NCBI GenBank assembly: GCA_018064935.1
Contig: JAGHUF010000011.1
Span: 1 to 64,000 of the forward strand
DNA length: 64,000 bases
Direction of reading: 5' to 3'
Source: Candidatus Merdinaster equi
GTDB lineage: Bacteria; Bacillota; Clostridia; Lachnospirales; Lachnospiraceae
A program made the translations under genes and the position numbers. Under the pieces are notes generated by a model. It saw nothing but the letters and a program-made list of their open reading frames with translations. It was not told the DNA's origin and did no database searches. Every line of letters starts with the position of its first letter. The stretch's first letter is position 1. This document shows, in pieces, positions 44,312 to 62,605 of this stretch.

Positions 44312-47043
44312 CAGGGATGAGCTGCGCGGCATGCCAAACAAGAGTTGAGAAGGCGGTCATGGCTGTAGACGGAGTGAGTAGCTGCGCGGTGAATCTTCTT
44401 ACTAATTCTATGGGCGTGGAAGGAAATGCCAGCCCAGATAAGATAATAAAGGCCGTGGAGACTGCAGGCTATGGGGCAAGTCTAAAAAATGCAAATGTGG
44501 CTGCAGGTTATGGAGATAGTCTTCAAAACGTAGGTGAGGCTGCAGGCTATGGAACTAGCCATAAAGGTGCAGATGAGGCTGAAGATATAGGTACAGATTC
44601 CGAGACGAAACAGCTTAAGAACAGGCTGATTGCCTCGGTTGTTCTGGTGATTCCGCTCGTATATGTTTCGATGGGAAACATGATGTGGGGATGGCCGATA
44701 CCGGAGTTTATGGCTAAGAATCATGTTGCCATAGGTATATATGAACTGCTTTTGTCCGGGCTGATCATGGTAATAAACCAAAAAGTTTTCGTCAGAGGAT
44801 TTAAGGGAGTGATCCATGGCTCGCCAAATATGGATACGCTTGTGGCACTTGGATGCGTGGCATCTTACTGCTACAGTTTGTATGCTCTTTTTGCGATGAC
44901 TGCGTGTGTGCAGGACGGAGATATGAACAGAGCCATGTATTTCATGGACCAGTTCTATTTTGAATCCGCAGCGATGATTCTGACCCTTATCACAGTGGGC
45001 AAAACGCTTGAAGCGAGGTCTAAGGGGAAAACTACCGATGCGCTGAAGGGACTTATGAAGCTGGCGCCGAAATCGGCTGTTCTACTTGTTGATGGTGTTG
45101 AAAAAACTGTTGATATTAGAGATGTAAAGCGTGGCGACAGATTTGTTGTAAAGTCTGGAGATAGCATACCGGTTGATGGAATTGTTATTGAGGGAGCGAG
45201 TGCTGTGAATGAGTCGGCGCTTACGGGTGAGAGCGTGCCTGTTGACAAGCTTCCAGGAGATAGTGTCTCTGCTGCTACAATCAACACATCTGGATATATG
45301 GTATGTGAGGCGACTGCCGTCGGTGAGGATACTACCCTTGCGGGAATAATCAGGCTCGTGAGCGATGCAGCAGCAACTAAAGCTCCGATTGCAAAAATAG
45401 CAGACAAGGTTTCAGGAATTTTTGTTCCATGTGTTCTTGGCATTGCGCTAATTACATTCCTGGTTTGGATTCTAGTAGGGGCTGACTTTGGGGATGCTCT
45501 TACCAGGGCAGTAGCGGTTCTGGTTATCAGCTGTCCATGTGCCCTTGGTCTTGCGACGCCTGTTGCAATTATGGTGGGTAATGGTGTCGCCGCCAAGGCT
45601 GGAATTCTATTCAAGACAGCTGCAGCGCTGGAGCAGACTGGAAGAACACAGATAATTGCCCTGGATAAGACTGGTACGATCACTACTGGAATAATGAAGG
45701 TAACAGATGTTATTCCTTCAACTGGAATGCCTCGCGAAGAGGTTTTGAGGGTTGCATATGGGCTTGAGAATAAGAGCGAACATCCGATAGCGAAAGCAAT
45801 ATGTGAATACGCTAAGGAAGAAGGTATTGAATGTGCTGAAGCGGAGGATTTTAAAGTTCTGCCCGGAAATGGTCTTTGCGGTGTTATTGATGGTGGTGAG
45901 ATAATAGGTGGAAGTGCCTCATATATAGAGGAACTGCTTGGTGGAACTGGTGCGTTGCCGGAAGGTGTTATTTCCGAACTATCAAGCCAGGGAAAAACGC
46001 CTGTTCTTTTTACAAAAGGCGGAAAAATTCTTGGATTAGTCGCTGTGTCTGATATAATTAAAAAGGACTCAGCAGAAGCAATAGAGCAGCTGAAGAAGCT
46101 TGGCATGTACGTTGTCATGCTCACTGGTGATAACAGGCTGACGGCAGAGGCTATTGCTAAGCAGGCAGGGGTTGATGACGTCGTTGCATCTGTTAAGCCG
46201 GATGGGAAAGAGAGTGTAATCCAAGAGCTTATGAAACATGGCAAGGTTGCCATGGTGGGTGATGGAATAAACGATGCGCCTGCGCTTACCAGAGCTGATC
46301 TTGGAATCGCAGTTGGAGCAGGAACGGATATAGCGATAGATTCGGCGGATGTTGTTCTGATGAAGAATAGTCTCATGGACGTTGCTGCCGCTATAAGGAT
46401 ATCCAGAGCGACACTTAGAAATATAAGAGAGAACCTGTTCTGGGCCTTTATTTACAATGTTATTGGAATACCGCTGGCAGCAGGTTGCTATGTGGCGTTG
46501 CTTGGCTGGTCACTCAATCCAATGTTTGGAGCAGCTGCAATGGGGTTGTCGAGCTTCTGCGTTGTGACTAATGCGCTTAGATTAAACCTTGTTAAACCAT
46601 ATAGCACTAAGCATGATTCGAGAAGAAACAGTCTGGCGATTAACTGCAGGGATGTAATGATGAAACTGCAGGGAAAAAAGGAAGATGCGCAGTGCTGTGG
46701 AGAAGACGAAATTGCGCGGTGCTGTGGAGAAAACGGAAATGCGCGGTGCTGTGAAGAAAACGGAAATGCGCGTTGTTGCGAAGAAACCGAAAATGCACAG
46801 TGCTGTGAAAAAATTATAGGAGGGGATGTATTAGAGATGAAAATAGCTGTTAAGGGAATGATGTGTGGACATTGCGAGATGCATGTAAAAAAAGCTCTTG
46901 AGTCGATTGAAGGAATAGAGAGCGCTACACCTTCACATGAGGAAGGCAGCGTTACAATCACAATGTCTAAAGAGGTTGATGAGGAACTTATCAAGGCAGC
47001 GATAGTTGAAGCTGGATATGATTACGCTGGCAAAATCGATTAA
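44293..47043 (+). CDS. copA: Copper-translocating P-type ATPase with expanded repeat tracts
   Basis: A 916-aa heavy-metal P1B ATPase, probably exporting Cu+. An N-terminal HMA domain (GMSCAAC, residues 8-14) is followed by three 13-aa AAGYG repeats (57-95). The membrane and catalytic core has TGESVP, the CPC motif in ISCPCALGLATP (near 414), the phosphorylation site DKTGTIT (Asp458) and GDGINDAP (near 657). After the last membrane segments come nearly five 9-aa repeats with Cys-Cys pairs (799-840) and a second HMA domain (GMMCGHCEMHV). A C-terminal HMA after a Cys-Cys repeat tract is unusual for this family. Start overlaps tcdA. Confidence 0.93.
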   Translation: MEQYKVTGMSCAACQTRVEKAVMAVDGVSSCAVNLLTNSMGVEGNASPDKIIKAVETAGYGASLKNANVAAGYGDSLQNVGEAAGYGTSHKGADEAEDIGTDSETKQLKNRLIASVVLVIPLVYVSMGNMMWGWPIPEFMAKNHVAIGIYELLLSGLIMVINQKVFVRGFKGVIHGSPNMDTLVALGCVASYCYSLYALFAMTACVQDGDMNRAMYFMDQFYFESAAMILTLITVGKTLEARSKGKTTDALKGLMKLAPKSAVLLVDGVEKTVDIRDVKRGDRFVVKSGDSIPVDGIVIEGASAVNESALTGESVPVDKLPGDSVSAATINTSGYMVCEATAVGEDTTLAGIIRLVSDAAATKAPIAKIADKVSGIFVPCVLGIALITFLVWILVGADFGDALTRAVAVLVISCPCALGLATPVAIMVGNGVAAKAGILFKTAAALEQTGRTQIIALDKTGTITTGIMKVTDVIPSTGMPREEVLRVAYGLENKSEHPIAKAICEYAKEEGIECAEAEDFKVLPGNGLCGVIDGGEIIGGSASYIEELLGGTGALPEGVISELSSQGKTPVLFTKGGKILGLVAVSDIIKKDSAEAIEQLKKLGMYVVMLTGDNRLTAEAIAKQAGVDDVVASVKPDGKESVIQELMKHGKVAMVGDGINDAPALTRADLGIAVGAGTDIAIDSADVVLMKNSLMDVAAAIRISRATLRNIRENLFWAFIYNVIGIPLAAGCYVALLGWSLNPMFGAAAMGLSSFCVVTNALRLNLVKPYSTKHDSRRNSLAINCRDVMMKLQGKKEDAQCCGEDEIARCCGENGNARCCEENGNARCCEETENAQCCEKIIGGDVLEMKIAVKGMMCGHCEMHVKKALESIEGIESATPSHEEGSVTITMSKEVDEELIKAAIVEAGYDYAGKID
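44461..44577 (+). repeat. Three 39-bp in-frame repeats in copA
   Basis: Three consecutive 39-bp units encode TAGYGASLKNANV, AAGYGDSLQNVGE and AAGYGTSHKGADE. They repeat the normal end of the HMA domain (AxAAGYGA) and extend the linker to the first membrane segment. Units differ at many bases, so the expansion is not very recent. Confidence 0.85.
46687..46812 (+). repeat. 27-bp in-frame repeats encoding Cys-Cys units in copA
   Basis: Four full 27-bp units and one partial (4.7 copies) encode a 9-aa unit A-[QR]-C-C-[GE]-E-x-x-[IN]. They give five Cys-Cys pairs at regular spacing just before the C-terminal HMA domain. Confidence 0.9.
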
Positions 47044-48381: not shown

Positions 48382-49128
48382 TTATTCTTCGTCCTTGGTA
48401 TCAGTGTCGTCCTCGGTATCAGCGTCGTCCTTGGAATCAGCATCGTCCTTGGAATCAGCATCGTCCTCGGTATCAGCATCGTCCTTGGTATCAGTGTCGT
48501 CCTTGGAGTCAGCGTCGTTCTTGGAATCAGCATCGTCCTTGGTGGCACCTGCATTTTGGGATTCATCCGTGTCATCGATATCATTTATATCTTCGATATA
48601 CTCTATATCATCAAAATCATCAACATCCTCGTCGTCTTCGTCGAGGATGTATTTTGTTTTTTTAGTACGACCTTTACCTTGCTTATTGGCCATATCCTGA
48701 AATAGGTCGGAAATAGACTCCCTGGAGTCGGCTTCGCTGGGCTCTTTCAATATCACTGGCCATAATAGGAGTGATAAAACAATAAAGCCTATTGCTGCAA
48801 AATACAGGTATAGGGAAGGTAGTCCAAATAATGAACATGCATTTAAATCACCGAGAAAAACAAGGAAAAATGAAGCGCCTGATAGTATATAAAGGAATCC
48901 GCTGACTCTGGAATACACCTTCATGGACGTTGGAGAGTATTTGTTATTCACGTGTCGGTAACCAACTAATTGACCTTTGAACAGCATGATAATACCTGCA
49001 ATGAAGATATAAACGCCGACAATTGCAGATATCCATGAAGAAATATCTGGTGCAGAATTAACTGGAATCGAAGATGCAGCTGTTACATCGGAAACAGATG
49101 AAAGAAAAATATTAAGGATAGTATTCAT
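48382..49128 (-). CDS. Membrane protein with acidic repeat tail
   Basis: A 248-aa protein I do not recognise. Four hydrophobic segments lie in the first 125 residues (around 28-48, 68-88, 92-102 and 107-122). A cytoplasmic-looking charged region follows, with QDMANKQGKGRTKKTKYILDED and then an almost purely acidic tail (about 160-248) rich in Asp. The tail contains about nine six-residue repeats of the type D-[AT]-D-[ST]-[KE]-D. The tail could bind cations or a basic partner; this is inference. Confidence 0.65.
   Translation of the reverse strand: MNTILNIFLSSVSDVTAASSIPVNSAPDISSWISAIVGVYIFIAGIIMLFKGQLVGYRHVNNKYSPTSMKVYSRVSGFLYILSGASFFLVFLGDLNACSLFGLPSLYLYFAAIGFIVLSLLLWPVILKEPSEADSRESISDLFQDMANKQGKGRTKKTKYILDEDDEDVDDFDDIEYIEDINDIDDTDESQNAGATKDDADSKNDADSKDDTDTKDDADTEDDADSKDDADSKDDADTEDDTDTKDEE
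48389..48543 (-). repeat. 18-bp repeats encoding an acidic tail
   Basis: About nine tandem copies of an 18-bp unit of the form CGTCCTTGGTATCAGCAT (plus strand) lie in frame in the minus-strand gene and encode D-A-D-S/T-K/E-D. The high similarity of neighbouring units suggests recent copy-number change by slippage. Confidence 0.88.
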
Positions 49129-51041: not shown

Positions 51042-52238
51042 TTACGTGAAGTATAGTCTGAACTTTATATAGTCTGACAGCTTATTTGCCATATACTCTC
51101 TGACTTCATCAGTTACATGGATTGCATCATCCATATATTTATCTGAGTTTTCTGCATGAAGTATATTGTCGTAGTAGCAGTCGAGATATGTTACATTATC
51201 ACGAATTGCAATATCATTTATTGCTGATACATAACCGGCTAGAGACTCATAGGAACGTCCCCAGGTTTCGAGATTATCTGGAGACTGCTCGTCTGCAGGT
51301 ATTCCTGTATAGTACAAATCGCCGGAAATCTTGGTGCCATCCTCGCTCGTGTAGAATCCGTAGGTTGGACTAACAACTACGAAGCGGATATGTGGATATT
51401 TGGTATGAATTGCTTCCATACCCAGAGTCAGGGCACCAGTAGTTGCTTCCTGTGAAGAAGGGTTGTAGATATTCTTTGTATTATGACCGCGGAGATAGTC
51501 GTTTGTTCCATAGCACAGGAAGATGATGTCGATATCGTTGAAGTCTATATGCTCGAGTGTGTCGAGCGATTTATCGAACTCTTCAGCTTCATAGATGTTG
51601 GCATATGTTTTGTAGTAATCCAGCATGGTATAATCGCCAGTCATTATACAGGTCGCTATCGAGATGAAGCTGAATACATCATCACAGGTATCAAGGGAAA
51701 GCTTCTCGGCATCTCTTGCGTATGAGGAGCCGCTAAAGCCACAGTTGTATACTGTAGCACCTGTATTGTCAGCAACCTGCTCGGCAATGCTTGTTTCTCC
51801 GTAGGTCAGGATGTCATCACCAAGGAAGAGTATGTATGTATCGTCATCGTCCCTGCCTGCGACCAGTTCTTTGTCAAAAGCAACGTAGTAATCCTGAGAA
51901 TCGCTGATTTCAACATCGATATCGCCAGTAGCTTCATAGTGATATTCTCTGGAAGAACATGCCCACAGACCAAATTTCAATCCAAATACGATTATGAGAA
52001 TCGCGATAATTCCGACTAGTCCAAGAAGAGGGAGGAGCACCATTAGTCGCTGCCTTTTGGCGTCGTAGGGCGCATCTCCTGTAGATTCTGAGACCATGAC
52101 ATCATCCTCACCATCGGCCGTAGTATTATTGACCGGATCTGGCGAATTGACATCTGTAAGGGTTTTGTTCATATCTGAATCTAAATCAGCTGAATTAATA
52201 TCTGTAATTGTCTTATTTTTATCTGAATCTGATTTCAT
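51042..52238 (-). CDS. Membrane-anchored SGNH-hydrolase-like protein lacking the usual Ser
   Basis: A 398-aa protein with a long acidic cytoplasmic N-terminus (1-60), one membrane segment (about 65-90) and an extracellular SGNH/GDSL-type domain (about 120-398). Block I reads ILFLGDDILTYGE, so the catalytic Ser of GDS is Asp142. Block II (NCGFSGSSYA), block III (CYGTNDYL) and block V (DAIHVTDE, the Asp/His pair) are present. Family members deacetylate surface polysaccharides, which suits the neighbourhood. Loss of Ser argues for a non-catalytic or altered role. The start at 52238 has GAGGA 7 nt upstream. The protein's N-terminus holds two similar acidic segments (TITDINSADLDSD and TLTDVNSPDP). 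Confidence 0.75.
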   Translation of the reverse strand: MKSDSDKNKTITDINSADLDSDMNKTLTDVNSPDPVNNTTADGEDDVMVSESTGDAPYDAKRQRLMVLLPLLGLVGIIAILIIVFGLKFGLWACSSREYHYEATGDIDVEISDSQDYYVAFDKELVAGRDDDDTYILFLGDDILTYGETSIAEQVADNTGATVYNCGFSGSSYARDAEKLSLDTCDDVFSFISIATCIMTGDYTMLDYYKTYANIYEAEEFDKSLDTLEHIDFNDIDIIFLCYGTNDYLRGHNTKNIYNPSSQEATTGALTLGMEAIHTKYPHIRFVVVSPTYGFYTSEDGTKISGDLYYTGIPADEQSPDNLETWGRSYESLAGYVSAINDIAIRDNVTYLDCYYDNILHAENSDKYMDDAIHVTDEVREYMANKLSDYIKFRLYFT

Positions 52239-52423
52239 AAATAATCCTCGTTTCTGAACAAATAAAAAAGCCATTTCTATGCTTGTGAATGTAAAACGTA
52301 TAGATGTCTTAATTTTACAATAAAAGTTGAGGGGTGTCTACTGGACGAACGCAATATATTGTGGATTGAAGGAGAAATAAGAGCGTTTTTTTCGTGACAG
52401 TTCCAATAGAGAAACTTCTATGA

Positions 52424-52429: not shown

Positions 52430-52520
52430 ATAGCAGCTATGAAAAACGCAGGCCATGAAAATAAAGGGTGGACTGTGGTTTTTCTGATGTTTGTACATGA
52501 GTATTATTTGGAGAATTAGC

Positions 52521-55325
52521 GTGTCGTCAAGAAAAGCGGACAGAAATGAATTGAATCACGGTATTACCGAAGAATTGGAATTCCTAGATTTAGGGATGGA
52601 TGAGGAAGAAGTTCGGGATATGCATGTGTCTGATGAGACTGGTGAAATCATTCTCGAAGGTTTTGATTTGACTGAGCTTGAGGCTGAAGCTAACCGCACT
52701 GAAACTGGTTCAATAAAGCTGGTAGACCTCGAGGATAGCGCTAACCTCACTGAAACTGGTTCGATAAAGCTGGTAGACCTCGAGGATAGCGCCAACCTTA
52801 CTGAAACTGGTTCGATAAAGCTGGTAGATCTTGAGAATAGCACTAACTTAACTGAGACAGGTTCAATAAAACTCATTGATTTAGAGGATGAGGCGAATCT
52901 AACTAAGACAGGTTCTATTAAGCTTGGTGAAGACGATTTGGATAGTAGGAAGATTAGCAGAAACAGAGTATCTTCCGGCAAGAGAGGAACTCGTTATCAG
53001 AAAGAGAAAACCTCTATTTTTGATAAACTCTCCCCAATGAAGCTCGCAATGGGAGGTCTAATAGCAATTCTTCTCATTGTGGCAACTGTTTTTGTGCTTA
53101 TTCTTCTGGGTAAGAAACCTGGGGATACCGAACTTTCAGGCGAACTTCTTGCCAATGCACAGCTCATAGAGAATATGAAGCCTGTCGGAATTCCGGGCAT
53201 GGAGAGTATTGCAGCCCAGAAGATGCAAGAGAATGTGGATGATGATTTTGGGGATTTCATTGAGGATGATATTGAAGAAATAACCCCAGAACCAGTTATA
53301 GCAGAAGATGTTGATGTAAAGGTTACATTTACATCTGTGGAAAAAGATTTAAAAATCAAATTTATCAATAAAAGCACTGGAAAACTTGTTAACAATGCTA
53401 GATTCAGCGTTGTGCTTAAGGATTCATCGGGCAAGGATTATCCATTTGAGGATGATGATATGGATGGAGTTATCCATCAGAAGTCGATGGCGCCCGGTAA
53501 ATACAAGGTTTCAATTACTGCACCACAGGGCTTTTTGATTGCATCAGCTGATGACAATGTTACTGTCAAGGACAAGATTGAATACAAGAAGATTGATGTC
53601 GCTGATGAAATTAAAAATCAAAATCAGGTAGCAGCAAGCGAAGATAAAGGAAATGTGTCGGCGACCACGCAGGAGGCGGTTACCGGTAGTTTGACAGATA
53701 CGGTAGAATATGTCGAATCATCAAGTAGTCCGGTTCAGACGGCTGCGACGTATTCTGAGATAAGTAAGGACAGTATTGCCAATCCAGATGATCTTGCCGC
53801 TGTCGCTAATATTGGCAGAGATGTTATGAATATCCTCCAAGGTGGATACGAGAGCGCTGCTCCTTGCGAGGAACCTCTTATTGGCCCGCTTCCGATGTAC
53901 GACCCGGAGGCAGGAGATGGAGACAATCATGAGGAGGGACCGGGAGAGACACCGACGCCAACTCCAGAGACAACGCCTGAGCCTACGCGCGAGCCGGAGG
54001 GACAGGTAACACCTTCTCCAACGCCTGAGGAGACACAGATACCTTCGCCGACTCCGACACCAACACCAGAAGTTTCGCTGTCACCAAGTGTTACACCGTC
54101 TGTCAGCCCATCGCCAAGCGCGACTCCGTCACCTACCGTGACACCTACACCATCAACTGGTCCTGAAGTGACTAAGCTGACTATTGATAAGACAGAACTG
54201 ACAGTGTTTACCGGTCGTAAGCAGGTTATTAATGCGACTGTTACCGTAGATGGTAAAGAGTATAAGAGCAGCGAAAACAAAGGATATGTGACATTCGCAA
54301 GTTCGGATAAAAATATCCTTTCTGTTGATTCGGAGAGTGGAGAAATTAATCCGTTAAAGGCAGGAACTGTCACACTTACTGTTAAAAGTAATGGAAAAAA
54401 TAAAGACGGTAAGGAACTTACGCAGGATATCAAGATTACTGTAAAACTTAATCCTGCGGATAATAAAACTGACAAGTTAAAGAATAAAAACGGAGATCAG
54501 GTATATATTCAGAAAGCTGACGGAAGCTATGCGGAAGCGACGTATGCTGATTATTATACAGCATCAAAATTTTTCGTTCAGAATGCGGCTCAGTATTCAT
54601 ATACAGGATGGCAGACGATAGATAACAAGCGTTATTTCTATACAAAAGAAGGAGTTCCTGTCACAGGAAAGCAGATTATTCAGGGAGTTGAGTATACATT
54701 TGATTCAACTGGAGCGCTGTTCACGGGTAATGCTGTATTTGGAATAGATGTTTCAAAGTGGAATGGCAATATCGACTGGAATGCAGTAAAGCAGTCGGGA
54801 GTCGAGTTTGTAATTATAAGATGTGGTTTCCGTGGATCGTCGGTTGGTGGACTTGTTGAGGATACGATGTTCAAGAAGAATATTCAGGGAGCTACAAACG
54901 CTGGACTTAAGGTTGGTGTGTACTTCTTTTCGCAGGCAATAAATGAAGTTGAAGCGGTAGAAGAGGCATCGGCTTGTCTTGCACTTGTTTCTGGTTATAA
55001 GCTTGCATATCCAATCTTCATAGATACGGAAGCTTGTAACGGAAGAGCTGACAAAATAGACAAGGGAACCAGAACGGCTGTATGTAAGGCATTCTGCCAG
55101 ACTATCCAGAATGGTGGCTATAAGTCGGGAATATATGCAAGTAAGAGCTGGTTCATCAATCAGTTAAAGACGTCAGAACTGAATTCCTTTACTATATGGG
55201 TTGCGCAGTATGCAACAGCCAATACTTATGGAGGACGCTATGATATGTGGCAGTATTCTTCAAAGGGTAAGGTTAAGGGAATAAGTGGTGATGTGGATTT
55301 GAACTATAGTTATGTAGGTTATTAA
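52521..55325 (+). CDS. Membrane-anchored GH25 lysozyme with cytoplasmic repeats
   Basis: A 934-aa modular protein. The cytoplasmic N-terminus holds five 17-aa repeats (about 58-142) with T-x-TGSIKL. One membrane segment follows (about 172-198). Outside the cell come a beta-sandwich prealbumin-like domain (about 258-350), a Pro/Thr/Ser-rich wall-spanning linker (about 470-550), a Big_2-like Ig domain (about 553-650), a YFYTKEG/FDSTGALFTG cell-wall-binding-like repeat (about 690-735), and a C-terminal GH25 muramidase (about 740-934; FGIDVSKWNGNIDW). The catalytic acids appear intact: Asp835 and Glu837 in IDTE. GTG at 52521 follows TTGGAG by 7 nt and is preferred to TTG at 52491. It likely cleaves or binds peptidoglycan. 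Confidence 0.88.
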   Translation: MSSRKADRNELNHGITEELEFLDLGMDEEEVRDMHVSDETGEIILEGFDLTELEAEANRTETGSIKLVDLEDSANLTETGSIKLVDLEDSANLTETGSIKLVDLENSTNLTETGSIKLIDLEDEANLTKTGSIKLGEDDLDSRKISRNRVSSGKRGTRYQKEKTSIFDKLSPMKLAMGGLIAILLIVATVFVLILLGKKPGDTELSGELLANAQLIENMKPVGIPGMESIAAQKMQENVDDDFGDFIEDDIEEITPEPVIAEDVDVKVTFTSVEKDLKIKFINKSTGKLVNNARFSVVLKDSSGKDYPFEDDDMDGVIHQKSMAPGKYKVSITAPQGFLIASADDNVTVKDKIEYKKIDVADEIKNQNQVAASEDKGNVSATTQEAVTGSLTDTVEYVESSSSPVQTAATYSEISKDSIANPDDLAAVANIGRDVMNILQGGYESAAPCEEPLIGPLPMYDPEAGDGDNHEEGPGETPTPTPETTPEPTREPEGQVTPSPTPEETQIPSPTPTPTPEVSLSPSVTPSVSPSPSATPSPTVTPTPSTGPEVTKLTIDKTELTVFTGRKQVINATVTVDGKEYKSSENKGYVTFASSDKNILSVDSESGEINPLKAGTVTLTVKSNGKNKDGKELTQDIKITVKLNPADNKTDKLKNKNGDQVYIQKADGSYAEATYADYYTASKFFVQNAAQYSYTGWQTIDNKRYFYTKEGVPVTGKQIIQGVEYTFDSTGALFTGNAVFGIDVSKWNGNIDWNAVKQSGVEFVIIRCGFRGSSVGGLVEDTMFKKNIQGATNAGLKVGVYFFSQAINEVEAVEEASACLALVSGYKLAYPIFIDTEACNGRADKIDKGTRTAVCKAFCQTIQNGGYKSGIYASKSWFINQLKTSELNSFTIWVAQYATANTYGGRYDMWQYSSKGKVKGISGDVDLNYSYVGY
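52692..52946 (+). repeat. Five 51-bp in-frame repeats, cytoplasmic tail of the GH25 protein
   Basis: Five consecutive 51-bp units encode N-[RL]-T-[EK]-TGSIKL-x-D-L-E-x-x-x. The first two units are almost identical in DNA and the last has diverged (TKTGSIKLGEDDLDS). The TGSIKL core is unchanged in all five. Confidence 0.92.
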
Positions 55326-55366: not shown

Positions 55367-56449
55367 ATGAGAACCTATCTTGTAACAGGCGGAGCCGGAT
55401 TTATCGGATCAAATTATATTCATTACATGTTTAAGAAGTATGATAATGATATCAGAATAATAAACGTGGATGCTTTGACCTATGCAGGAAATCTTGAGAA
55501 TCTTAAAGATATTGAGAAAAGAGATAATTATACCTTTGTGAAGGCAGATATCTGTGATAAGGATGCTATTTCAAAGATTTTCGAGGAGAACGATATTGAT
55601 CGTGTTGTTCATTTTGCAGCTGAGAGTCATGTAGACAGAAGTATTAAGAATCCCGAGGTTTTCGTCCAGACCAATGTTCTTGGAACAGCTGTAATGCTCA
55701 ACTGTGCTAAGGCGGCATGGGAATTGCCAGATGGAAGCTTCAAGGAAGGCAAGAAATTCTTACATGTCTCAACAGATGAGGTCTATGGCTCGCTCGAGAA
55801 TGATGGTGAATATTTCTATGAGACAACACCTTATTCACCACACTCACCATATTCTGCAAGTAAGGCAAGTTCAGATATGCTCGTAAAAGCATATATGGAT
55901 ACATACAAGTTCCCTGCTAACATAACCAACTGTTCTAATAACTATGGTCCTTACCAGTTCCCTGAGAAGCTGATTCCACTGATTATTAACAACGCACTTC
56001 AGGGTAAAAAGCTACCTGTTTACGGCGATGGCAAGAATGTCAGAGACTGGTTATATGTTGAGGATCATGCAAAGGCAATTGATATGGTTCAGGAGAAGGG
56101 AAGACTTTTTGAAACATATAATGTCGGAGGTCACAATGAGAAGCAGAATATTGAAATAATCAATATCATCATTGATACTCTCCAGGAAATGCTTCCAGAT
56201 GGTGATCCCAGAAAGCAGCTTGTATCTAAGGAACTCATCACATATGTTACAGATAGAAAAGGTCACGACAGAAGATATGCAATTGCTCCTGATAAGATTA
56301 AATCAGAAATCGGTTGGGAGCCTGAAACCATGTTCAAGGATGGAATTAAGCTTACAATCAAGTGGTTTTTTGAACATGAAGATTGGATGAAGAATGTAAC
56401 AAGTGGCGATTATCAGAAGTATTACAATGATATGTATACAGGAAGATAA
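55367..56449 (+). CDS. rfbB: dTDP-glucose 4,6-dehydratase
   Basis: A 360-aa short-chain dehydrogenase/reductase-type enzyme that converts dTDP-glucose to dTDP-4-keto-6-deoxyglucose. NAD-binding TGGAGFIGSNYIH is at residues 7-19, followed by HFAAESHVDRSI, HVSTDEVYGSL, the catalytic YSASKASSD and NNYGPYQFPEKLIP. AAGGAG precedes the start. It begins the dTDP-sugar genes of the polysaccharide region. Confidence 0.96.
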   Translation: MRTYLVTGGAGFIGSNYIHYMFKKYDNDIRIINVDALTYAGNLENLKDIEKRDNYTFVKADICDKDAISKIFEENDIDRVVHFAAESHVDRSIKNPEVFVQTNVLGTAVMLNCAKAAWELPDGSFKEGKKFLHVSTDEVYGSLENDGEYFYETTPYSPHSPYSASKASSDMLVKAYMDTYKFPANITNCSNNYGPYQFPEKLIPLIINNALQGKKLPVYGDGKNVRDWLYVEDHAKAIDMVQEKGRLFETYNVGGHNEKQNIEIINIIIDTLQEMLPDGDPRKQLVSKELITYVTDRKGHDRRYAIAPDKIKSEIGWEPETMFKDGIKLTIKWFFEHEDWMKNVTSGDYQKYYNDMYTGR

Positions 56450-56491
56450 TTTTTGTGATAAACGACTGAAAATGGAAATGGAGATATCTCA

Positions 56492-57361
56492 ATGAAGGGA
56501 ATAATTCTTGCCGGTGGCTCCGGTACTCGCTTGTATCCACTTACAAAAGCAATAAGCAAACAGATTATGCCGGTTTATGACAAGCCAATGATATATTATC
56601 CGCTTTCAACACTTATGCTTGCGGGGATTAGTGAAGTGCTCATCATTTCTACACCGAGGGATTTGCCTGTGTTTAAGGAGCTTCTAGGAAGCGGTGAGCA
56701 GCTTGGAATGAGATTCGAATATGCAATTCAGGAAACACCAAGAGGTTTGGCCGATGCATTTATCATTGGTGCTGATTTCATAGGCAATGACTCAGTTGCG
56801 CTTGTTCTTGGAGATAATATTTTCTATGGGCAGAGCTTCTCAAAGGTTCTTAGACAGGTTGCCTCAAGGGATAAGGGAGCAACTATCTTCGGATACTATG
56901 TGCGAGATCCAAGAGAGTATGGTGTTGTAGAATTTGACGAGAACGGAATGGCTATTTCCATTGAGGAAAAGCCGGAGAAACCAAAGAGCAATTATGCTGT
57001 TCCAGGATTGTATTTCTATGATAACGATGTAGTTGAAATTGCAGCAAATGTTAAGCCTTCTGCCAGAGGGGAAATTGAGATTACAAGTATCAATAATGAG
57101 TACTTGAACAGAGGAACACTTCATGTTGAAACTCTCGGAAGAGGATTCGCTTGGCTCGATACAGGAAGCCACGACTCACTTCTCGATGCAGCGAACTTTG
57201 TTGCTACTTTCCAGAAGAGACAGGGTCTGTATATCTCATGTATTGAGGAAATCGCCTTTAAGAGAGGCTTTATTGATAGGGAGCAGCTACTTAAGTTAGC
57301 TGATCCACTTATGAAGACTAACTACGGTAAATATCTTGTAGAGGTTGCGAATGGGCTCTAA
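56492..57361 (+). CDS. rfbA: Glucose-1-phosphate thymidylyltransferase
   Basis: A 289-aa nucleotidyltransferase making dTDP-glucose from dTTP and glucose-1-phosphate. [42 protein letters not shown] is the RfbA N-terminus; [22 protein letters not shown] and [18 protein letters not shown] follow. Full length. The last 11 bases overlap the start of the second GH25-like gene. Confidence 0.97.
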
Positions 57362-58853
57362 GCTGGTTGCCAGAACGATTATAATATGTTCCCTTTGCAT
57401 ACTGCTTATTCTCGGAGTAATTTTTATTGCAAATAAGACGGGAATTCTCGGCGGGGAGGGTGGAGGAACCTCACCGAATAATGAAGAGCTGCTGTCAATG
57501 AGTTCGGATCAGTATGTGTTAAACTCAGGAAATAATATAGCCTTGAATGGTGATGTCAGGGCATTTATGAGTGATGAGTCCTTCTGGGACACCGAAGAGA
57601 TAGGGGAAGGCTTGTCCGACATTATTGATACGGATGCAGTTAACAATGAACTTGTTCGTGTGAAATTGTCAGCGATAAGCGTCGACCATGATTTAAGAGT
57701 GCAGATTCTGGACAATCAGGGCAAAAGAGTAACAGGTGTTTCTTTTTATATCACAATAGAGGACGTAGGTCAGTTCAAGGATTTGGATAAGGATGGAGTG
57801 ATTTATGTCGGCGATATGGAGCCGGGAGATTATGCAGTAAGTGTAGACCCGTTGGAAGGCTTTCTGGTTGCCTCATCAAGGCTCAATGTCCATGTGAAGG
57901 ATGCACTTGAATACAGAACTATAAACGACATAGCGCTCCTCATGCACATGGAGAGCGAAGTCGATGCGGAAAATGATATATATAATGAGCCCTGCGGCAA
58001 GTCTGATACGGATTCTACGGAGAAGATTACCAGGTTTCAGAATCTGGTAAATACCAAAACTGGTATTGATGTATCAAGTAATAATGGTGAAATCGAGTGG
58101 AAGAAGGTTGCAAATGACGGAATTGATTTTGCAATGCTCCGAGTTGGAATGAGGGGATATACCTCAGGAAATCTGATTGCAGACCAGAGATTTACGGACA
58201 ATATTGTGAAGGCACAGGCGGCTGGAATAAAGGTCGGGATATTCTTCTTTTCTCAGGCAATTAATGAAAAAGAGGCTGTTGAGGAAGCAAGCCTTGCGAT
58301 TAATCTGTCGAGAAGCTATGACCTGGATCTTCCAATATATGTTCAGATGCAAAATATTGGCGGAAAGGGAAGAGCCGACAATCTGAGCGTGGAGGAACGA
58401 ACTAGAATTGCTACTGCTTTCTGCAGGACGGTATCAAATGCCGGATACAGAACTGGAGTGTCAGCCTCAGCTTCTTATATTCAGAACGAACTCGACCGAA
58501 ATGAGACCGGAAAATATCTCACGTGGCTGGCTGAATATCGAGGCGAGACCACATATCCGGGAATATATCAGATGTGGCAGTACACAGGAAATGGTGTTGT
58601 TGATGGGATAACAGGGGCTGTTCATCTAAATATTGGTAATCTTGACAATACGTATATTGATGAATACAGGTCCGTTAAAGCAAGCGAGAGCGATATTGAC
58701 AGAGTGAAAGATCCACTGGATTCCGACGATGAGGACGATTTACAGTCAGAGCAGAATAATGAGGAAACTATTTCTCGTTACGATGAACCTGAAGAAAACG
58801 AACAGAATTCAAATTCAAATAACGAAACCGAAGACAGAATAGGTTGGGGGTAA
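57351..58853 (+). CDS. Membrane-anchored GH25-like pseudoenzyme
   Basis: A 500-aa relative of the GH25 protein at 52521. It has an N-terminal membrane segment (about 7-28), a prealbumin-like domain (about 100-200, [20 protein letters not shown]...[17 protein letters not shown]) homologous to that of the first, a GH25 fold (about 230-440) and an acidic tail. [13 protein letters not shown] keeps the first Asp, but the catalytic D-x-E is replaced by Gln332-Met-Gln334 (YVQMQN), and the late DVDLN becomes AVHLN. Hydrolysis is therefore unlikely; binding of glycan is more probable. ATG at 57351 follows GAGG; it overlaps rfbA and ends 2 nt before rfbC, so it is embedded in the rhamnose operon. Confidence 0.85.
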
Positions 58854-58855
58854 AA

Positions 58856-59416
58856 ATGGGAAAGTTAACAGTAGAAACATGTGAGATTGAAGGACTTAAG
58901 GTTATTACACCACAGGTGTTTGGAGATGCCAGAGGGTATTTCATGGAGACCTATCAGTTTAATGATTTCAAGGAAATCGGTATTGATGAGCCATTTGTTC
59001 AGGATAATCAGTCGGCTTCCAAGAAAGGAGTGCTCAGAGGGCTTCATTTTCAGATAAATTATCCACAGGCTAAACTCGTAAGAGTGGTAAACGGAGAGGT
59101 TTACGATGTTGCTGTCGACCTTAGAAAAGGTAGCAAGACATATGGTAAGTGGTTTGGAGTTGTGCTGTCAGCAGAGAACAAAAAGCAGTTCTTTATACCA
59201 AAGGGATTTGCTCATGGTTTCCTCGTATTGTCTGATTATGCCGAGTTCTGTTATAAGGTTACGGATTTTTATCATCCAAATGATGAAGGTGGTTTATTAT
59301 ATTCAGACCCTGATATTGGAGTTGAGTGGCCTATCCCCGAAGGAATGGAACTTATCATGTCAGATAAGGACACCAAATGGGGTGGAATAAAGGAATATAC
59401 AGAGAAGAACAGCTAA
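58856..59416 (+). CDS. rfbC: dTDP-4-dehydrorhamnose 3,5-epimerase
   Basis: A 186-aa cupin-fold epimerase converting dTDP-4-keto-6-deoxyglucose to dTDP-4-keto-rhamnose. Motifs include DARGYFMETYQ, FVQDNQSASKKGVLRGLHFQ (catalytic His region), VYDVAVDLRKGS and FIPKGFAHGFLVLSD. GGGGG precedes the ATG at 58856. RfbD, the last reductase of dTDP-rhamnose synthesis, is not in the window. Confidence 0.95.
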   Translation: MGKLTVETCEIEGLKVITPQVFGDARGYFMETYQFNDFKEIGIDEPFVQDNQSASKKGVLRGLHFQINYPQAKLVRVVNGEVYDVAVDLRKGSKTYGKWFGVVLSAENKKQFFIPKGFAHGFLVLSDYAEFCYKVTDFYHPNDEGGLLYSDPDIGVEWPIPEGMELIMSDKDTKWGGIKEYTEKNS

Positions 59417-59450
59417 ATTGTTCAAAAAATCACACTGGAAGATTGAGAAG

Positions 59451-60449
59451 ATGAAACAAAAGGTACGTATTTCCAAGAAGGCAGGAATATTACTTGGCGT
59501 GTTATTTGCGGTGGGTATGCTGTCGATATTGTGGCTGCATGATAATCCGCTTGCGGTCGAGATGGAGGAGTTTATCAAGAAAATCGTTGCAACTGGAATA
59601 ATTCTGGTTGCATTGGTTATCTATATCCTTGTTTATGATAAATTAGTAGTTCTTCCCAAAGAGTTATGGTCCAACAGAAGATTGATATGGAAGCTTGCAA
59701 AGAATGATTTCAAAACCAGATATGCAGGGTCATATCTTGGAATGGTGTGGGCACTGGCGCAGCCGGTGGTCACTATTTTGCTTTATTGGTTTGTATTCGG
59801 TGTGCTCATGCCGGCAAAGGCTCAGGTTGCAGGAGAATTGGACGTCCCAATAGTCATTTGGCTGACTGCTGGTCTTGTTCCGTGGTTCTATTTTTCTGAA
59901 GCTTTGTGCAATGGAACTAATGCGCTGCTTGAATATAATTACCTTGTTAAGAAGGTGGTCTTTAAGATAAGTGTCCTGCCTATAATTAAGGTTTTAGGAG
60001 CGACCTTTATCCACGTATTCTTTTCAGTTGTTATGCTTATTGTCTATTTCTGTCTTGGTTTTGCACCTAGCATATATCTGATTCAGATTCCATATTACAG
60101 TATTTGTCTATTTGCTTTTGTGCTTGCACTGAGCTATTCGACATGTGCAATTGTCGTATTTTTCAGAGATCTAAATCAGATTATAAGTATATTTCTTCAG
60201 GTGTTTATGTGGGCAACGCCCATTTTATGGAATATTAACCTTCTTCCAAATCCAGTTCTCCAGCTGATTTTCAAATTGAATCCAATATTCTATGTGGTCA
60301 ATGGTTATAGAAGCGCAATGTTTGAGAATACCTGGTTTTGGCAGGATTTCTACTCTACAATGTATTTCTGGATTGTGGTTGTAGTTCTTTTTGGCCTCGG
60401 GGCATTGATATTCAAGAGACTTAAAGTCCATTTCGCTGACGTGATGTAA
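59451..60449 (+). CDS. Polysaccharide ABC exporter permease (Wzm-type)
   Basis: A 332-aa ABC-2 permease. The core from about residue 75 shows LIWKLAKNDFKTRYAGSYLGMVWALAQPVVTILLYWFVFG, WLTAGLVPWFYFSEAL, NYLVKKVVFKISVLPI and FFRDLNQIISIFLQVFMWATPI with six membrane segments. Two additional hydrophobic segments precede it (about 10-28 and 47-67), which is more than the usual Wzm. ATG at 59451 follows GGAAG by 9 nt; TTG at 59418 is an alternative. It should work with the ATPase at 60563 to export an undecaprenyl-linked glycan. Confidence 0.88.
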   Translation: MKQKVRISKKAGILLGVLFAVGMLSILWLHDNPLAVEMEEFIKKIVATGIILVALVIYILVYDKLVVLPKELWSNRRLIWKLAKNDFKTRYAGSYLGMVWALAQPVVTILLYWFVFGVLMPAKAQVAGELDVPIVIWLTAGLVPWFYFSEALCNGTNALLEYNYLVKKVVFKISVLPIIKVLGATFIHVFFSVVMLIVYFCLGFAPSIYLIQIPYYSICLFAFVLALSYSTCAIVVFFRDLNQIISIFLQVFMWATPILWNINLLPNPVLQLIFKLNPIFYVVNGYRSAMFENTWFWQDFYSTMYFWIVVVVLFGLGALIFKRLKVHFADVM

Positions 60450-60562
60450 GCTATATGGCAGAAGAGTGGCATATAGATTTGTGCGTGTGGGTTGTGCGTT
60501 AGCGTGTTGCTGATGATTATGACGTAGAGCCTGCAGAATATGGAAATCGTGGGAATTAGTAT

Positions 60563-61846
60563 ATGATAAATGAAACAGTTAATCAGGAAAATAGAAAAGT
60601 GGCAGTTTCGGTAGATAACGTCTCGAAGGTGTACAAGCTCTATGACAGAAATAGGGATAGAATGCGTGAGGCACTTGGACTTACCAGAAAGAAGCTTCAC
60701 AAAGAGCATTTTGCACTTCGTGATGTGAATGTAAAGATATATCAGGGTGAAACTGTCGGAATAATCGGAACGAATGGTTCTGGCAAATCAACAATTCTTA
60801 AAATAATTACCGGAGTACTTAATCCGACTTTTGGAGAAGTCAGGGTGAATGGCCGAATTTCAGCGCTTCTTGAGCTGGGTGCTGGCTTCAATATGGAGTA
60901 CTCTGGAATGGAGAATATCTATCTGAATGGAACGATGATGGGATTCTCCAAGGAGGAAATAGAGAAAAGGATTCCTGACATTCTGGAATTTGCAGATATA
61001 GGTGATTTTGTTCATCAGCCATGTAAGACATATTCTTCGGGTATGTTTGTAAGACTTGCGTTTGCAGTGGCAATCAATATTGACCCCGAGATTTTGATAG
61101 TTGATGAAGCGCTCTCTGTCGGAGACGTTTTTTTCCAGAGTAAGTGCTATCACAAATTTGAAGAATTCAAAAAAGCAGGAAAGACAATTCTGTTTGTATC
61201 ACACGACCTGTCATCGGTTGCAAAATATTGTGATCGCGTAGTGCTTCTTGATAAAGGAGTTAAGCTTGGCGAGGGAAGCCCTAAAGCCATGATAGATGAT
61301 TACAAGAGAGTTCTGGTTGGTCAGTATGAGATGAATTCGCAGAAAGCTGATGCGGCTCTTGCACCGGGAGAGAATCCTGAACTGTTGGAATACGGTACTG
61401 GTCAGGCAAAGATTACAGAATATTTCATCGAAGATGACCACGGCAAGAATACGACAGCTGTGATAAAGGGAACAGAATTCTCTATTCACATGAAAGTTGA
61501 ATTTATGGTTGATCTTCCGGCTCCTATCTTCGCCTTTTCGTTCAAGAATATAAAGGGAACAGAAATAACTGGAACAAACACCATGTTTGAAAAATCCTAC
61601 TTAAAGCCTGTTAAAAAGGGGCAGGTTCTTGAAATTGTGTTTACTCAGGATATGAGCCTTCAGGGCGGGGATTATCTGTTATCGCTTGGACTGACGGGGT
61701 ATGAAGGGGATCAGTTCCAGGTATATCACAGACTCTACGATGTTCTGAATATTACAGTCATATCGGAGAAGAATACTGTGGGATTCTATGATATGGGTTC
61801 TAAAATAGAGGTAATTAACGTTAATAATTCATCTGAAGATGAATAA
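60563..61846 (+). CDS. Polysaccharide ABC exporter ATPase with carbohydrate-binding domain (Wzt-type)
   Basis: A 427-aa ATPase. Residues 1-250: VDNVSKVYKLYDRNRDRMREAL, Walker A GTNGSGKST, signature YSSGMFVRLAFAVAI, Walker B ILIVDEALSVGD, His switch FVSHDLSS. The Wzt/TagH subfamily feature YSGMENIYLNG is present. A C-terminal beta-sandwich (about 275-425, GTEFSIHMKVEFMVDLPAPIFAFSFKN) resembles Wzt domains that recognise the glycan's non-reducing end. It is preceded by a 113-bp spacer with nothing recognisable. Confidence 0.93.
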   Translation: MINETVNQENRKVAVSVDNVSKVYKLYDRNRDRMREALGLTRKKLHKEHFALRDVNVKIYQGETVGIIGTNGSGKSTILKIITGVLNPTFGEVRVNGRISALLELGAGFNMEYSGMENIYLNGTMMGFSKEEIEKRIPDILEFADIGDFVHQPCKTYSSGMFVRLAFAVAINIDPEILIVDEALSVGDVFFQSKCYHKFEEFKKAGKTILFVSHDLSSVAKYCDRVVLLDKGVKLGEGSPKAMIDDYKRVLVGQYEMNSQKADAALAPGENPELLEYGTGQAKITEYFIEDDHGKNTTAVIKGTEFSIHMKVEFMVDLPAPIFAFSFKNIKGTEITGTNTMFEKSYLKPVKKGQVLEIVFTQDMSLQGGDYLLSLGLTGYEGDQFQVYHRLYDVLNITVISEKNTVGFYDMGSKIEVINVNNSSEDE

Positions 61847-61855
61847 TTGTCAGAA

Positions 61856-62605
61856 ATGAATATGATGAACGATAACAATATTAAGAAAAAATTGGATAGT
61901 CTGTATATAGTAATGCCTGCCTATAATGAGGAAGAAGCAATAGAGCAGGTGGTGTTGTCATGGTACGAATGTCTGAAGGGGAAGGCACCGGAGAGTCGAC
62001 TTGTTGTGGCTGATAGCGGAAGTCAGGACAGGACGCATGGGATTCTGGTCGAGTTGCAAAAAAGTCATCCACAGCTTGAGATATTAGGAGACACGCTGAC
62101 AACGCACGGACCTAAGCTTATTGCACTTTATCGATATGCCCAGTTAAAAGGGGCAGATTATATATTTCAGACAGATTCTGACGGACAGACAGAAGTGTCA
62201 GAATTCGATGCGTTCTGGAAAAAACGCCGTAAATACGAGGCTTTGATAGGATACAGGAAGAAGCGTGGTGACGGTATTGTCAGAAAGTTTGTAGAGAAGG
62301 TTGTATGCTTTTTGCTCCAGATTATATTTGGAGTAAAGGTTCCAGATGCAAATGCTCCATACAGATTGATGAAGACATCTTTGGTTGCAAAGTACTGTGA
62401 CAGATTTAGAGAGGATTATAATCTTCCTAATATTATGCTGACTACTTTTTTTGCGTATTATAGAGAAAACGTAGCATTTAGGATTATCAGCTTTAAGGCA
62501 AGAAAAACGGGAACAAATAGTATTCATTTTCTTAAAATAATCAAAATAGGCATCAAGGCACTTGCTGATTTTGGCGCATTCCGTAAACAGATGCGAGAGA
62601 ATTAG
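61856..62605 (+). CDS. Family 2 glycosyltransferase
   Basis: A 249-aa GT-A fold transferase: YIVMPAYNEEEAIEQVV at the N-terminus, VVADSGSQDRTHGIL, and the nucleotide-sugar/metal motif QTDSDGQ. It has one hydrophobic stretch (about 152-163) but no clear extra membrane domain, resembling polyprenyl-phosphate-type or short GT2 enzymes. ATG at 61856 is chosen over TTG at 61847, which directly follows the previous stop; neither has a good ribosome binding site. Donor and acceptor are unknown. Confidence 0.82.
   Translation: MNMMNDNNIKKKLDSLYIVMPAYNEEEAIEQVVLSWYECLKGKAPESRLVVADSGSQDRTHGILVELQKSHPQLEILGDTLTTHGPKLIALYRYAQLKGADYIFQTDSDGQTEVSEFDAFWKKRRKYEALIGYRKKRGDGIVRKFVEKVVCFLLQIIFGVKVPDANAPYRLMKTSLVAKYCDRFREDYNLPNIMLTTFFAYYRENVAFRIISFKARKTGTNSIHFLKIIKIGIKALADFGAFRKQMREN

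Follow-up and report, generated by a model that had tools for sequence, protein, structure and literature searches.

A tandem repeat array in the predicted cytoplasmic tail of a GH25 lysozyme from a rhamnose-polysaccharide operon of Candidatus Merdinaster equi

The lysozyme gene and its operon

The window analysed here, a stretch of 64,000 nucleotides from the genome of Candidatus Merdinaster equi, encodes a lysozyme of the GH25 family (GH25a) in an open reading frame that opens at a TTG codon (52491-55325, +; 944 amino acids). Its likely start, judged from the sequence, is the GTG codon at 52521 rather than this TTG; a GGAG motif at 52510 lies seven bases upstream of the GTG, and the resulting gene model (52521-55325, +; 934 residues) combines the reading frame, the GGAG, a PF01183 match, an alignment of 32 sequences and an AF2 prediction. 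The AF2 model, computed from the GTG start with the 32-row alignment, assigns residues 1-162 a pLDDT of about 30, typical of disorder, followed by a transmembrane (TM) helix at residues 172-196 (53034-53108, +) that is also apparent in the hydropathy profile, and by well-folded ectodomains ending in GH25. GH25a thus has a predicted disordered N-terminal tail of about 170 residues in front of a single TM helix. The 40 residues N-terminal to this helix carry a net charge of +5, and the helix is succeeded by a Pro/Thr-rich linker, a choline-binding-type wall-binding repeat and the GH25 domain. Because of this charge before the helix and the Pro/Thr-rich stretch and GH25 domain after it, the N-terminus is predicted to lie inside, which makes the tail cytoplasmic. 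An earlier note on this DNA had placed a repeated motif on the cytoplasmic side of a membrane-anchored lysozyme; the array described below, the TM helix and the charge in front of it bear this out, the orientation being a prediction.

The order of the extracellular domains is wall-binding repeat (PF19127; residues 695-735; 54603-54725, +) and then catalytic domain (residues 742-921; 54744-55283, +). The latter belongs to GH25: it matches PF01183 at 6.6e-34 over profile positions 1-180 of 180, it is modelled with high pLDDT, and the solved structures closest to it are those of GH25 muramidases, among them 2wwc and 2ww5. The catalytic DxE pair and the N-terminal Asp (D743, D835 and E837) do not vary among 32 homologues, and lysozyme activity is therefore predicted.

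Downstream of GH25a follow rmlB, rmlA, a second GH25 gene (GH25b), rmlC, an ABC-2 permease resembling Wzm/TagG, an ABC ATPase with a Wzt_C domain and a GT2 glycosyltransferase (55367-62605, +; assigned by Pfam and NCBIfam). Upstream and divergent lies the gene for an SGNH/GDSL hydrolase-like protein with one TM segment (51042-52274, -), whose N-terminal tail has a short repeat of its own, NKTITDINSAD/NKTLTDVNSPD, which belongs to a T-x-T-rich 16-residue element in two copies (NKTITDINSADLDSDM / NKTLTDVNSPD). A single scan of genome contigs, mostly titled Lachnospiraceae or genera placed there, yielded 80 homologous loci in which the order of the operon genes is conserved; rmlB directly follows the lysozyme in 75 of the 80, and the SGNH gene is found in 58 and is divergent upstream in 38. 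GH25a is accordingly assigned, by gene content and order, to a conserved operon for a rhamnose-rich wall polysaccharide. No kinase or FHA genes are linked to this operon, all such matches falling on other contigs. In GH25b (57345-58853, +) the sequence reads PIYVQMQN where about 30 homologues show P[IV][FY][IL]D[TSV]E; with Gln in place of each acidic residue of its DxE site, the protein is probably a pseudo-lysozyme in the source species.

The repeat array

Five T-x-TGSIKL cores begin at 52698, 52749, 52800, 52851 and 52902 within the open reading frame 52491-55325 (+), at a spacing of exactly 51 nt and with a TRF score of 273; counted from the GTG start, the array covers approximately residues 60-135. 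Units 1 and 2 (52698-52748 and 52749-52799, +) both read TETGSIKLVDLEDSANL and are separated by 3 synonymous nucleotide differences and 0 amino acid changes, the mark of a recent duplication. They are followed by unit 3 (TETGSIKLVDLENSTNL; 52800-52850, +) and by unit 4 (TETGSIKLIDLEDEANL; 52851-52901, +), in which many synonymous changes have accumulated and which, like unit 5, is old. Unit 5 (52902-52925, +) is reduced to the core TKTGSIKL, its VDLED half lost and GEDDLD being the next residues, and a divergent sixth relative of the core, DETGEIIL (52632-52655, +), lies upstream of the array. Of the five 17-residue units with unchanged core that the earlier note had counted, the five cores stand, and only units 1-4 are full length. 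The copy number may be affected by misassembly, since the assembly of the source genome is incomplete (75% complete, 113 contigs). A minus-strand reading frame across the array (52556-52981) was rejected as a gene, being a mere mirror of the repeat.

The array is not a chance product: the DNA pattern for TGxIK[LF] has 9 matches in the 1.95-Mb assembly, 5 of them in the array, as opposed to 2 in a reversed control. Summed over all pairs of the five units, the 8-codon core shows 35 synonymous and 4 nonsynonymous differences (pS 0.54, pN 0.02, pN/pS 0.04), while the remainder of units 1-4 is looser with a pN/pS of 0.22. The core is under purifying selection, and since its codons diverge at a pN/pS of 0.04 it is the protein motif and not the DNA that is maintained.

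Repetitive coding sequence also occurs elsewhere in the window. A TM protein without a Pfam match (48382-49128, -) has an acidic C-terminal tail of KDDADSKDDADT repeats, encoded by an 18-bp unit present 8.6 times, and a heavy-metal ATPase has a Cys-rich repeat RCCEENGNA (46676-46813, +; 27 bp, 5 copies) in front of its C-terminal metal-binding domain.

Tails and a short motif among relatives

A search for TGSIKL in other proteins of the genome, proposed in the earlier note, returned four further matches to the DNA pattern; the three that were read belong to an L11-like ribosomal protein, a RecD-like helicase and a TM protein, none of which is a repeated tail. The core is likewise not conserved in homologues, a point on which that note had staked its reading: TGSIKL occurs in 0 of 75 homologue tails, and no further copy of the array turned up in 397 family genomes, which gave only two weak matches (E about 0.008). 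Across these 75 tails and 397 genomes, TGSIKL therefore appears private to the source genome.

The tail itself is widespread. It is present in front of the TM segment in all homologues with a recognisable TM, mostly at a length of 110-435 residues and shorter on cut contigs, so that the architecture, which had been thought unlike that of a normal lysozyme, is the usual one in this operon, where such homologues all carry a predicted cytoplasmic tail. Two relatives encoded outside the operon (L154 and L155), which are tailless and whose N-terminus is short or resembles a lipobox, were not used as counter-examples. Tandem repeats occur in 68 of the 75 homologue tails, with units of 4-53 residues and lineage-specific sequence. 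Most tails are rich in Asp, Glu and Tyr, most contain about 1-4% Thr, and in most the acidity is high (DE up to 0.68); some, such as those of two related genomes (L008 and L011), are basic and rich in Ser, Arg and Lys, with QRKAS and RRNAS repeats that have the look of basic Ser sites. Sequence comparison thus identifies the tail architecture, and not the wording TGSIKL, as the conserved family trait.

Many GH25a tails contain a single N-terminal motif of the form Phi-x-Phi-Phi-D-[LF]-[DE], for example in ELEWMDFDEE, DTLEFLCLDDE, NELEMIDLDNT and DLNFMDLDEN (the last from Kineothrix alysoides, a cultivable relative), and SGNH tails of other lineages share it (IEIIDLDQ, LEVIDLED, EWIDLEE). The source GH25a has a copy, LEFLDLG (52575-52595, +), at the family-wide motif position; with the GTG start it begins at residue 19, in agreement with residues 18-26 in four homologues (L037, L046, L056 and L047). 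Units 1-4 each contain IKL[VI]DLE[DN], and SIKLVDLED reads, on this comparison, as four further motif copies, which as tandem duplicates count as a single observation. When only one unit of the array is kept, high scores are obtained for both LEFLDLG and IKLVDLE, and the second-best score is reached by 1 of 5000 shuffles.

The strict motif, a class defined after both sets of tails had been viewed, occurs in 11 of 75 GH25a tails (0.08 in shuffles) and in 11 of 58 SGNH tails (0.03 in shuffles). A matrix trained on the GH25a motifs alone finds 12 of 52 SGNH tails against 0.84; run the other way, a matrix of SGNH motifs performs weakly on GH25a tails (6 against 2.5 at threshold 10). Among 1437 open reading frames (475,326 residues) of the same loci the strict matches fall mostly in GH25a and SGNH tails, and in six whole genomes, of the matches assignable to a reading frame, those of GH25a and SGNH are the only ones in an N-terminal tail before a TM segment. 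A 0.27-Mb sample of genome stretches was taken as background. Most GH25a tails lack the strict motif, those of Butyrivibrio and others showing mainly acidic and Tyr-containing repeats, and the SGNH protein of the source window has no good match. Scored by matrix, the motif is found in GH25a at 20 loci, in SGNH at 13 and in both at 0 of 55 (Fisher p 0.002), a result that with the first matrix, lacking substitution pseudocounts, becomes p 0.12. An either-or placement of the motif is a lead only, and we do not claim exclusivity: the rmlB+rmlA tree needs 3 changes of SGNH state and a paired test is powerless.

Possible roles of the tail and known systems

We favour the interpretation that GH25a is a bitopic lysozyme whose disordered tail serves as a motif-based, multivalent docking arm that couples wall cutting to polysaccharide assembly or export, and we put its probability at a little under one half (about 0.47). 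It draws on the repeat and the selection acting on it, the predicted disorder and TM helix, the intact catalytic residues, the conservation of the operon and the motif enrichment in both tails. The cytoplasmic N-terminal tail would act as a recruitment arm, on which the Phi-x-Phi-Phi-D-[LF]-[DE] motif would dock to a cytoplasmic partner in polysaccharide assembly or export or in the growth machinery. In the source species its tandem amplification (TGS-IKLVDLED four times, plus the decayed fifth copy) would confer avidity, and docking would bring peptidoglycan cleavage to the sites at which new polysaccharide leaves the cell and is attached; the side of the membrane, the docking, its partner, the avidity and the spatial coupling are what we infer. 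The repeats were earlier proposed as docking sites; a docking array is plausible, and the conserved element within it is Phi-x-Phi-Phi-D-[LF]-[DE] instead of TGSIKL.

The same proposal invoked a kinase or an FHA-domain protein. According to this alternative the repeated Thr (TET-GSI, with a hydrophobic residue at +3) is a substrate of a PASTA kinase, and the phosphorylated array would either recruit an FHA protein or free the lysozyme from its partner, thereby coupling wall stress to cutting. The genome encodes suitable components, namely one PASTA Ser/Thr kinase (C46, 691 residues) besides two other kinases, and two FHA proteins on other contigs, one EssC-like and one with the order protease domain, TM and C-terminal FHA. 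(In L003, the source-genome protein with protease domain, TM, Gln-rich linker and FHA domain, the protease is probably outside and the FHA domain cytoplasmic.) Homologue tails are enriched in [DE]T[VLIGA]x[ILVF] (17 against 3.0 expected) and in T-G-x-[IVL] (11 against 2.0 expected; 7 of 75 tails have it against 1.9 expected), and in several a Thr immediately precedes the motif (VTDDTLEFLCLDDE). There is precedent in MltG, whose disordered cytoplasmic tail is phosphorylated at T20 by IreK (PMC12369325), and in Clostridioides difficile, where PrkC phosphorylates the hydrolase CwlA and alters its export (PMC8262956). However, PrkC sites in C. difficile have no specific signature (PMC9674922), the N-terminus of IreB from the source genome itself (MADMGSTQFFRV) has only T-x-x-Phi in common with the array, the window yielded neither a kinase nor an FHA gene, and the tails are generally poor in Thr. 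As the conserved motif often occurs without Thr, ELEWMDFDEE being one of many such cases, docking is a better candidate for the core function than phosphorylation is. We hold a phospho-switch to be possible at best and rather doubtful as the primary role; phosphorylation may have a part in some lineages and may form an added layer over docking.

It is also unlikely, in our estimation, that the tail is a mere topogenic element or spacer, in which low-complexity acidic repeats change in length by slippage and are tolerated, or hold the N-terminus inside, with no specific partner. The turnover of tail sequence among genera with its lineage-specific repeats, the pronounced acidity of most tails and the near identity of units 1 and 2 would all suit such a spacer, but it does not account for the constraint on the core across old units, nor for a motif that many loci show in excess close to the N-terminus and that a second protein shares, and the basic, Ser-rich tails argue that acidity is not the constant. 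A degradation or export-control signal, by which a membrane protease or AAA+ adaptor reads the N-terminal hydrophobic-acidic motif and so sets lysozyme abundance, would suit the place and short hydrophobic-acidic make-up of the motif, with extra copies strengthening it, but is highly improbable given that, in the loci and six genomes scanned, the N-terminal tails with the motif are those of just two co-encoded proteins and not spread proteome-wide, and that we know of no degron of such form.

What lies in the tail is a real, selected and lineage-specific amplification within a conserved tail, and docking is its best-supported reading. A more far-reaching proposal, which we advance tentatively and think unlikely to hold in full, is that a previously undescribed short linear motif, present in one or the other of two enzymes from the same locus, lysozyme or SGNH, draws wall enzymes of the outer face to the rhamnan-export machinery at its inner face, coordinating wall opening with polymer export from the inside out, and has been amplified about five-fold here. 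This touches on the question of how cells place wall hydrolases at the export sites of new surface polymers, for which a lysozyme of a polysaccharide operon with a conserved, putatively docking cytoplasmic motif would provide a small, mutable handle in a dominant gut family.

Known systems resemble GH25a in part. The solved 1,4-beta-N-acetylmuramidases of the GH25 family (PDB 2ww5 and 2wwc) match residues ~722-929 only and no part of the tail. MltG of Enterococcus faecalis and Streptococcus pneumoniae is a bitopic wall cutter with an extended disordered cytoplasmic N-terminal tail, as is predicted for GH25a, both proteins belonging to organisms that encode a PASTA kinase, and in E. faecalis this kinase phosphorylates the tail (PMC12369325). 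In contrast to GH25a it is a YceG transglycosylase; GH25a has no Pfam match to the YceG catalytic domain and is not of the MltG type, T20 phosphorylation has been demonstrated for MltG alone, and the comparison concerns the manner of working only. EpaU of E. faecalis is a GH25 autolysin whose gene lies within the enterococcal rhamnan cluster (PMC13343894); both proteins join a GH25 domain to a wall-binding domain and are encoded inside a rhamnose-polysaccharide cluster, evidenced for GH25a by rmlB, rmlA, rmlC and the Wzm/Wzt-type ABC genes. The domain order is reversed, since in EpaU the GH25 domain precedes a C-terminal wall-binding domain, and EpaU is a surface-extracted protein with a disordered Ser/Thr-rich segment before GH25, for which neither a cytoplasmic tail nor a docking motif is reported (PMC13343894).

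MapZ of S. pneumoniae shares with GH25a the single TM segment and the disordered N-terminal tail, cytoplasmic in MapZ and predicted to be so in GH25a. MapZ is not known to have a lysozyme domain. Its tail has a conserved docking region and, unlike that of GH25a, a known partner, FtsZ, which it binds through residues 17-43 (PMC7055233).
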